Shown here piece after piece: positions 17,501-25,415 of a stretch of DNA of 64,000 nucleotides. Each line of letters starts with the position of its first letter. Position 1 is the stretch's first letter. Position numbers and translations under genes: made by a program. The notes beneath the pieces were generated by a model. It did no database searches. It saw only the letters and a program-made list of their open reading frames with translations, and was not told the DNA's origin. The DNA comes from Ianthella basta (taxonomy: Eukaryota > Porifera > Demospongiae > Verongiida > Ianthellidae), in NCBI GenBank assembly GCA_964019415.1, contig OZ025869.1:14981959-15045958 (forward strand). The letters run 5' to 3'.

Positions 17501-20500
17501 AGGTGCGGAGAAAGGTCCCTTTAATGTGTCCATTGAAGCCACCCCATTCTCAGTCCACATTGAGTGGATGGAAACATTTGATAACATCCCATTTGTCACT
17601 GTCTACAACATAACTGTGGAGACTCTGGTAACCAAGGCAACCAGGACCGTGTATGTTGACGGTAGCCCTCATGAGGCCAATGTGACTGGTCTGAGCCCCT
17701 TCACGGAGTACTCCTTCACAGTCACAGCTGAGTACAGATATGGACCAGGACCACCGAGTGAGGCTGTGGTTCAGAGGACCAGGGAACATGGCAAGTGACC
17801 AATTGCCCCTTTGGGGGTCAATGTGTTGTGTGTAGCTCTTCTGTATGGCACACATGCACTGTCATCATTCAGACCTCCTTGTACAGAGACTTCTGTACTA
17901 GCTGTGTGTAGTCTGTGCAGTGTCAGGAGTTGCTGATGTCCTTTCTCCCTTCAGTGCCAAGCCCACCTCTCTCCCTGATGGCAGTGGATGCAGACTCCTC
18001 AACAGTGTCTCTAGTCTGGTTTCCTCCAACAGAACCAAATGGAATCCTTCTGTTTTATCAAGTGGTGGCCAGACAAGTGGGGAGCAACAGAGGGAAAATT
18101 GTTGTCAGCGTAGCAGCTAACATGTCAACATCTGACACGGTAGAGTTCCCTGTCAACAAAAGTGACTTGTTGATGGTCAACAGAACTGAAGACTTGTCAG
18201 CAGCAAATGACTTTGTATCCTTTACTCTAACCAGTCTGTCTCCACACACTGTCTATGTCATCACTGTTCAAGCCAACACCAGTGCTGGGTATGGGAACAG
18301 GAGTGAAGAGCTGCACATTAGAACAGATCTAGGTGTGTGTGTGTGTGTGTGTGTGTGTGTGTGTGTGTGTGTGTGTGTGTGTGTGTGTGCATGTGTAATG
18401 CTACCTCCTCCCATCTACTCCATCTACAGAAGCAGATATAGTCCCCACTGTGGTACCAGCAGTTGTGGTCCCCACGGTGATGGCTGTGGCAGTACCTGCC
18501 ATAGTGGTATTAATGGCATTGCTATGTCACAAGTGGAGAAAGAAGAACACTGTCCCTGTGGGTGGGAACCAGGACAGAGGTAAGTCCTACCACTGGTCAC
18601 CATCCAACAGTAGGCCACACTGCATATAGCCCCAGCTGGAGTGTGCTCTGAAAACCAACTGAGTATCAAGACATGCAGATTCAATTGCCTCAGTGCACCT
18701 TCGTGAGCAGAACACCAACCAAAAACAATCACTGTATTATAGAGAGAGTCATGCAGAGATTAATGAGGAACTGCTACAGCAGAGGCTTATTGCAGTAGTG
18801 CAGTGTCTCTGAATTCCCCAACACTTGATTAGATCACCAATAGCTACATCCACACTAACTTGACCAAGTGATGTTTGCAGTAAAAGAAGTGTTTGTTGTA
18901 TGCTGATTAATTGCCTAGTTGGTTCAGCAGGTTAACTGGTCTAGTACAGGCACTGCAGAGACTGCTGAGTTCCTCTGCAAGCCTTAGGGAAGGGAGGGGG
19001 TTAATTGATTGAACACTCCTATTGTACTGCCAAGTGCTCACTTACTCTTTGTCTGCTATCCCTCTCGTTTGCAGATAGTGCAGTTCAAGTTGCTGTTATC
19101 AGAGATGGAGCACAGCAGAGAGCCAAGACACCTGTTAGTTCACTCTGCATTAATCTGTTGCAATGAGAGGGATGAGGGGGGCATTGGAAGTACACTCCCT
19201 CCTGGCTTCATTAACCACACTGTATATTGTTGTGTCCAGCACCTTGTAGCAGGAGGCAGCTGGGCAATGTGAACAACACTAGAAATCCTTTAGATACTTG
19301 TGAAAAGTGCAGTTGCTGGTTCATGAGTGCACTATATGGGATTGCAGCCACAGTGTACTGCTCCACAGAGTGGAGATTCACATGCCACTACCAGTAGACT
19401 GCAGTAGTATGTCCTGCTGTATTCACTACTGACAACCACTTAAGTTTGTCCTCACTTCTCCTCTCCCCTGTGTAGCCACCGGTGAAGGAGGTGGCAGCTG
19501 TGGATGTGAGACAGTGGATAATGGACTATGACGACATGGTACTGAAGTGGCCAGTGGGCAGTGGGCAGTTTGGGGTGGTGATGCTGGCCTATCTGAAGAG
19601 AGAGGCTGCATCATCTGCTGTCACCCAGTACATCACAAGGCAGACAGCTCCTGATGGCCGCCTCCCTCCCCAACTGGTAGCAGTGAAGCGATTCAGTGGT
19701 GAGAACCTACCAACAGAGAGGGTTGCTGTTGCAATGATATGTTAACTGTGCTGTAGTACGGTTAAGTGTGCATGTGGAGCAACAGATTCATACTTTGTGT
19801 ACGTATATGTCATGCTTTGAGCTCTACTTCTTCCCTTCCACCCAGCTGCGAGGATGCGTCTGGAGATGGAGTACTTTTACAACGAGATTGCCATCATGAT
19901 CAAAGCATCTTCAGAGGGTCACCGCAATGTCATCAAGTTGGTGGGCTGCATCCCTGAGCTGCCCTATCCTTCCATCATCATGGAGTATGCTCCACTGGGC
20001 AACCTTCATAACTTTCTACTGAAGTACAAGAATCAGGTGAGGGTCTAGCACGCTAGGACACTAGGCTGTGTCCCATTGCAGGTCACTAGCTCTGTTCACT
20101 CCCTTGGTCATGCAGCGTCTCCCTGCCATGGTCTCTGGCACTGTGATCATGGCCCCTGTCAGTGATGTTGCTCCAGAGTTCCAGAGCTACTACAACACAC
20201 TGACCCTGGAGCCTCAGGATGTCCTCCACTTTGCAGCCCAGATTGTCTCAGGGATGGTGAGCACAGAGACCACCTCAAGTGTTGGATACATTGTCACAGG
20301 TCTCTTCCACTTCCCCAGGAGTTCTTGGCCAGCCTGAACATCATCCACAGAGACCTTGCCTGCAGGAACATCTTGATTGCCCAGGACAAAGTGCTGAAGC
20401 TAGCTGACTTTGGCCTCTCTCGGGAGGTGGAGGATATGTATGTCTCTAAGACAGCTTGCAGCCTCCCTGTCCGATGGATGGCTCCGGAGGCAGTGGTGTG

Positions 20501-25415: not shown

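Follow-up and report, generated by a model that had tools for sequence, protein, structure and literature searches.

Receptor tyrosine kinases, in the textbook view, carry one kinase per chain and work by dimerising, and two kinase domains on one receptor chain are, to our knowledge, otherwise known mainly as a cancer mutation. A stretch of 64,000 nucleotides from the sponge Ianthella basta (C2:14981959-15045958; hereafter the window) raises the question of whether two tyrosine kinases can form part of one inherited receptor chain. A sequence-only reading of the window had placed at 19476-24315 a receptor gene (gene A) in which two complete kinase domains, kinase 1 (K1) and kinase 2 (K2), follow a single transmembrane (TM) helix in one open frame, and had pointed to a second gene of the same design (gene B). 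Both genes and their relatives in the genome (209 Mb searched, 96 contigs) are described here.

Exon Structure of Gene A

A splice-aware reading of gene A (plus strand) yields one frame in the order SRCR-FN3-FN3-TM-kinase 1-linker-kinase 2-tail, without an internal stop from the first modelled SRCR exon to the stop at 25415. In the final model, all acceptors are AG and all donors are GT, save one GC after the first FN3 exon. Three SRCR exons (14253-14558, 15426-15764, 16942-17250) and two FN3 exons (17503-17790, with the GC donor, and 17955-18332) are defined by splice borders and Pfam. The single TM exon (18430-18579) is defined by hydropathy, which gives one transmembrane stretch as the sole peak of the protein, and by 25 copies in the family; it is followed by a juxtamembrane exon (19075-19133) whose weak donor, gttagt, is identical in gene B. 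Kinase 1 (19476-21284) comprises the exons 19476-19698, 19846-20036, 20116-20256, 20319-20527, 20657-20697, 20948-21044 and 21133-21284, and kinase 2 (22342-24315) the exons 22342-22785 (with linker at its start), 22981-23171, 23244-23384, 23485-23693, 23782-23822, 23983-24079 and 24158-24315, both sets being supported by splice borders, Pfam and residues. Between them lie three Pro-rich linker exons, all phase 1-1 (21450-21590, 21731-21964, 22170-22241), which contribute to a Pro-rich linker of about 240 residues, and the gene ends with tail exons in open frame (24488-24646, 24862-24972 and 25309-25415, the last with the stop). All kinase exons lie where the sequence-only reading had put them, with AG/GT borders and no internal stop. 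A Pfam scan of the joined protein, in the part first modelled, also returns two PK_Tyr_Ser-Thr stretches (3.8e-143 for the protein), together with three SRCR and two fn3 domains.

The extent first given to the gene holds for the kinase coordinates and is too small for the gene as a whole. Five upstream SRCR exons, all phase 1-1 and on the plus strand (9043-9348, 9848-10183, 10737-11057, 12139-12444, 12852-13172), carry it back to at least 9043; they have AG/GT borders and an open frame, are named by similarity to Pfam-scored exons while being themselves unscored, and may all be used jointly in one transcript. The likely signal-peptide exon, assigned at C2:14978791, lies about 3 kb before the window. 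A 164-amino-acid open frame on the plus strand at 8128-8622, 5' of the SRCR exons, has no Pfam match at 0.01, and may be an extra exon of gene A or a separate gene.

Gene B and the Shared Domain Order

Gene B (plus strand) can be read from signal-peptide exon to stop as 1800 amino acids without an internal stop, in which Pfam finds two kinase stretches, four SRCR and two fn3 domains; the SRCR/FN3 outside part that had been proposed is thus borne out in both genes. The predicted signal-peptide exon (28849-28954; 35 codons plus one base, phase-1 donor, hydropathy) is followed by four SRCR exons (29735-30055, 30903-31208, 32589-32930, 34041-34349) and two FN3 exons (34610-34897, 34974-35336), which rest on open frame and Pfam. 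The TM exon (35722-35868) has its acceptor moved by 3 bases relative to gene A, and the juxtamembrane exon (36913-36971) has splice borders and an open frame. Spliced alignment places seven exons of kinase 1 at 37175-38971, three linker exons at 39140-39280, 39429-39668 and 39969-40040, and seven exons of kinase 2 at 40141-42113. Tail exons in open frame occupy 42293-42448, 42668-42778 and 43113-43219 (stop); one tail donor of the first model is lost in gene B, and in-frame alternatives are present.

At the DNA level, the domain order of A and B is signal peptide, SRCR repeats, two FN3, TM, kinase 1, Pro-rich linker, kinase 2 and tail. Gene B has the signal peptide (by hydropathy), extracellular domains, one TM helix and cytoplasmic tyrosine kinase of a receptor tyrosine kinase, as does gene A, with its signal peptide outside the window; the usual single kinase per chain is replaced by two kinase domains. 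The GC donor (gcaagt) after the first FN3 exon is common to A (17790/17791) and B (34897/34898). Long CA/GT dinucleotide tracts occur in the window at 17279-17432, 18333-18400, 34370-34545, 35337-35690 and 54865-55910, and four of these are intronic, adjoining the last SRCR exon and the second FN3 exon at matching positions in A and B.

A Family of Tandem-Kinase Genes

The claim that gene B repeats the design, so that gene A is no isolated fusion, stands as to the parallel, whereas its count of two proves too low: a search with the K2 catalytic-loop exon shows that the genome has no fewer than 28 K1-K2 pairs (26 on C2, two on C21). This number is a lower bound, as it is drawn from the best 150 of 857 candidate places, and it omits one neighbour match that joins the K2 of one gene to the K1 of the next. 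Among these best 150 places, 58 lie on C2 and C21, and 56 of them form the 28 K1-then-K2 pairs; the two unpaired places, both on C2, are one partial K2-like copy and one single kinase, neither of K1 type. The other 92 are single, save for five cases in which two places of equal type lie on one strand no more than 9 kb apart; one such pair, on C13, was rejected as a dual receptor, since its second copy lacks N-lobe exons in the alignment and is a truncated duplicate. These 92 further catalytic-loop exons (again among the best 150 of 857) have the same borders, are distributed over C4, C5, C7, C10, C11, C13, C16, C22, C23 and C84, and apparently constitute a large expansion of mostly single-kinase relatives, from which, together with C2, eleven single-kinase stretches were read (one of them on C2).

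Searched at the DNA level with 19476-24315, the genome gives 120 matching pieces. Seven besides gene A, including gene B, span the whole query at 88-95% identity, and the remainder are fragmentary, many at about 70-80%. When the K1-linker-K2 protein was aligned with splicing to 19 paralogous loci, 14 of them (A and B included) read through both kinases over 16 introns without stop or frameshift, which excludes chance; within these 14, the aligner put one intron in another phase at L016 and L026_17. Defects are found at the other five: one frameshift in L025, one stop in L030, two stops and one frameshift in L031, two stops in L022_21, and, in L029 (C3:8276500-8284500), a K2-like copy whose frame has a stop and two frameshifts and whose HRD and DFG motifs are broken. 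L029 is taken for a probable decayed copy, and some of the broken tandem copies may be dead. C3 at 8.1-8.9 Mb contains copies, L029 among them, with a DNA match to kinase 2 only. The family also has a deep tandem member, L040, which is 51% identical to gene A in each kinase. SRCR, two FN3 and TM were seen in L049, upstream of a second-subfamily gene, and in L051, upstream of the deep member.

One Chain or Two

The kinase exons of gene A lie 1057 bp apart, and 447 bp of this distance is linker exon. Three comparisons of A-type with L020-type pairs give linker dN/dS values of 0.54, 0.58 and 0.50, the fractions of bootstraps (500) at or above 1 being 0, 0.002 and 0, respectively; the linker is thus under purifying selection, which indicates that it is translated. 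The family TM exon lies before K1 in 25 of the 28 pairs, 1.6-3.3 kb before the K1 catalytic exon, is not found for three, and in none is it between the kinases. For 23 pairs, an exon resembling the signal-peptide exon of gene B was located 4-34 kb upstream in the same orientation, one for each and none shared, with no other pair intervening between the exon and its K1-K2 pair; it is not found for five pairs and likewise lies between the kinases in none of the 28. A separate start in front of kinase 2 accordingly finds no support, and K1 and K2 as separate genes were rejected on linker selection, the pairing in at least 28 genes and the absence of a TM or signal-peptide exon of the family between the kinases.

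The signal-peptide exon has 33 matches, ten of them without an assigned pair. Minus-strand copies near the family without an assigned pair are located at C2:15402184, 15407643, 15397342, 15559189, 15483214 and 15436430. Unpaired copies are perhaps alternative first exons or kinase-less SRCR genes.

Conservation of the Two Kinase Domains

The VAVK lysine, alpha-C Glu, HRDLAxRN and DFG had been noted in both kinases, and they are present in both genes. More broadly, both kinases at 18 of 18 aligned tandem loci keep the start of the glycine loop, the beta-3 Lys, the alpha-C Glu, the His and Asp of HRD, the catalytic-loop Asn, DFG, the activation-loop Tyr and the Glu of APE. In L040, the catalytic set is kept by eye, and the glycine loop of K1 lacks its third Gly. 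The best solved relatives and the HRDLAxRN and RWMAPE motifs in the alignment of the tandem loci place the kinases in the tyrosine kinase group. By sequence, the first-ranked solved relative is 9p9u, an EGFR chain of 678 residues that contains two kinase stretches, followed by PDGFRA/FGFR1 for K1 and RET/FGFR1 for K2; given these next relatives, the asymmetric interface of EGFR need not apply.

In the three comparisons of A-type with L020-type pairs, dN/dS of K1 and K2 is 0.44 and 0.33, 0.44 and 0.36, and 0.45 and 0.31, respectively. A set of ten pairs has values below 1 in K1, K2 and linker, and K2 is below K1 in nine of the ten, the exception being A-L031 (K1 0.27, K2 0.33); these pairs share history and are non-independent, and the differences between K1 and K2 are modest. 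Both kinases look catalytically competent, and both are, by residues and dN/dS, evidently kept by selection. Outside the kinase cores, three tyrosines are kept in all 14 intact loci (VDLDYELQQ, EITPYSSTT and SPYMDLN), and a further one is conserved in these loci at the very start of K2.

Origin of the Double Kinase

A tree of 41 rows was built from K1 and K2 of L040 and of nine among the 19 loci, from 11 single-kinase rows (three with no more than half of the columns filled), and from two human segments and eight further kinases of the same genome; L010-L013, L015, L018_19, L023, L025 and L027, mostly near copies of kept rows, and L029 were left out beforehand. All K1 and K2 rows form one clade (100/99), within which each kinase, as a check proposed with the original claim, has its own clade (K1, 96/83, the weakest key support in the tree; K2, 99/93), and the inner order of the two is broadly parallel. 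The closest single-kinase receptor in the tree is L038 on C16 (84/89). The human RET and PDGFRA segments join the receptor tyrosine kinase clade of the genome at 100/97, as its sole human rows and with an inner order that is not fixed. A fusion of two unrelated kinases is rejected by the K1+K2 clade.

Five consecutive exons have equal lengths in K1 and K2 of gene A (191/141/209/41/97), and the exon phases also match between the kinases in the spliced alignment. Since the single-kinase receptors of the genome share much of the kinase exon structure, matching exons alone are insufficient and the tree is needed. Together, tree and exon anatomy support a single origin, in which a seven-exon kinase cassette would have been duplicated in frame within a single-kinase SRCR receptor and then spread by whole-gene copying. 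In the open frames of L038, read by eye, the SRCR exons stand directly before the TM exon without FN3 between them; the simplest history would include, besides cassette duplication and whole-gene amplification, a gain of FN3 at some point.

Proposed Mechanism and Its Alternatives

Gene structure, paralogues, linker selection and phylogeny support a receptor that spans the membrane once and bears, on the same chain, two tyrosine kinases that are apparently active. The best overall explanation, which we consider likely, is a family of at least 28 double-kinase single-pass receptors derived from one cassette duplication, in which the kinases would activate each other in cis. The tether would hold the two kinases at high local concentration, so that one could activate or phosphorylate the other within the same chain; ligand-driven clustering through the SRCR/FN3 part would gate or amplify this in-chain activation, and the conserved tyrosines in the kinase 1 tail, the linker and the kinase 2 tail would act as docking sites. 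A fixed K1-K2 contact is not required, as the linker of about 240 residues is longer than that of the best studied two-kinase receptor known to us, the EGFR kinase-domain duplication (EGFR-KDD). The SRCR part is more variable between A and B than the kinases, which suggests that it may recognise varied external ligands. Two of its three compared exons have dN/dS values of 0.85 and 1.3, with wide intervals, and the third has 0.22; the pooled value is 0.61 and reaches 1 or more in 4.6% of bootstraps, which hints at changing recognition and is no evidence of positive selection. Such a receptor might, as the sequence-only reading had suggested, phosphorylate itself in cis, signal without a need for dimerisation, or have two specificities.

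A division of labour as in JAKs, with one kinase, more likely K1, serving mainly as an allosteric regulator despite intact catalytic residues, is a somewhat doubtful alternative. It would fit the lower dN/dS of K2 in nine of the set of ten pairs and in all three inter-subfamily pairs, and the missing third Gly in the K1 loop of L040. However, regulatory pseudokinases usually lack some catalytic residues, and none of K, E, HRD, N, DFG or the activation-loop Tyr is missing from K1 at any of the 18 loci; in addition, the pair A-L031 is reversed, and differences that are modest among non-independent pairs weigh little for such a division. K1 and K2 could instead be independent output kinases with different substrates that the tether merely co-localises, which is unlikely. 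K1 and K2 of gene A are down to 46% identity, and their P+1 stretches differ (LPV in K1 of 18 of 18 loci; LPY, once LPF, in K2), yet the deep member L040 breaks this rule, with LPI in K1 and VPV in K2, and only three gap-free columns are fixed differently between all K1 and all K2 in an alignment of ten loci.

Production of two transcripts, namely a one-kinase receptor ending after K1 and a cytoplasmic K2 from an internal promoter, is improbable. Two poly(A)-signal-like motifs lie between the kinases of gene B (39301 and 39310) and none between those of gene A, and even the motifs in B stand against linker exons that keep their frame from one subfamily to another and evolve under purifying selection, short introns between the kinases (100-205 bp in A, 100-300 bp in B), and the pairing of 56 of the 58 places on C2 and C21 among the best 150 of 857, with neither unpaired place of K1 type. 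An artefact of assembly or annotation, or a decayed gene pair, hardly deserves credence: large tandem repeats are prone to misassembly and in five of 19 copies the aligned frame is interrupted, but the same design recurs at distant loci in copies with about 75% protein identity and, on another contig, in a copy with 91%, and dN/dS is below 1 in both kinases.

The reading as double-kinase receptors activated within the chain can be carried further, at the level of a tentative proposal that is possible without being favoured. The duplication would then have been fixed as a normal receptor class of at least 28 genes, with K1 and K2 as an obligate activator/receiver pair, a monomer that can signal under the control of ligand, and a varying SRCR array for diverse recognition, perhaps immune or self/non-self.

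Other Features of the Window

On the minus strand, an open frame at 47785-48633 contains a furin-like RQKR site, seen by eye, and then a TGF-beta ligand domain (PF00019, 5.8e-9, above cut-off) in its last 107 residues. The whole open reading frame has no Pfam match at 0.01, and such a frame could therefore be overlooked. This domain, together with the many tyrosine kinase exons of the genome, speaks for an animal source. Frames on the plus strand at 2595-4194 and in the first 1000 bases of L049 look by eye like a non-LTR retroelement; of three frames scanned at 2595-4194, one has a weak Exo_endo_phos_2 match (E 0.005, below cut-off) and two have none at 0.01, and the L049 frame has no convincing Pfam match.

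Comparison with Known Systems

In the part of the literature that was covered, no publication was found that describes a naturally occurring animal receptor carrying two tyrosine kinases. Within the same genome, L038 and L050 on C16 share with the family SRCR exons (by eye), one TM exon, the phases of the kinase exons and three equal exon lengths (191/41/97), and differ in having one kinase, a short tail and no FN3 seen between SRCR and TM. WTK7-TM (Pm36) is a membrane-associated tandem kinase of plants that acts as a resistance protein; its kinases are of the Ser/Thr type, and its origin is unrelated to the A/B family. RSK-type kinases are cytoplasmic and of the Ser/Thr type, and differ from the A/B family in not being tyrosine kinase receptors. 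They have two kinase domains per chain, one of which regulates the activation of the other (PMC4177888).

JAKs also have two tyrosine-kinase-fold domains in tandem on one chain. They are cytoplasmic, with FERM-SH2 and a pseudokinase first, whereas Pfam finds neither FERM nor SH2 in A or B, which have SRCR, FN3 and TM instead, so that the chain is transmembrane; moreover, K1 is no pseudokinase by its residues, K, E, HRD, N and DFG being intact at 18 of 18 loci. The distinction from JAKs that had been drawn at the outset is therefore upheld.

The EGFR-KDD linker is shorter than the linker of about 240 residues found here, and the A/B family further differs in its SRCR/FN3 outside part and in solved relatives that are PDGFRA, FGFR1 and RET apart from one EGFR chain. 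EGFR-KDD is a somatic cancer lesion, whereas the genes described here are inherited, number at least 28 and have K1 and K2 that are 46% identical. The likeness lies in two kinase copies that come, by tree, exon lengths and phases, from an in-frame duplication of the same exons. In EGFR-KDD, the kinase exons of a single-pass receptor are tandemly duplicated in frame to give two intact kinases and a linker in one chain, intramolecular dimers form without ligand and intermolecular dimers or multimers form with ligand on top, and forced proximity by itself suffices for raised activity (PMC7925532). Despite the long linker and a possibly different interface, a similar proximity effect should hold in the sponge receptors too.

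A natural, amplified two-kinase family offers a direct test of intramolecular kinase pairing in receptors, and represents one route by which an animal has elaborated phosphotyrosine signalling. It suggests that the type of lesion found in EGFR-KDD tumours can turn into a stable inherited design, and its linker and interfaces may therefore reveal how such a receptor stays off without ligand. Taken by analogy, the family looks like the oncogenic EGFR kinase-domain duplication carried in the germline, and not like a JAK.
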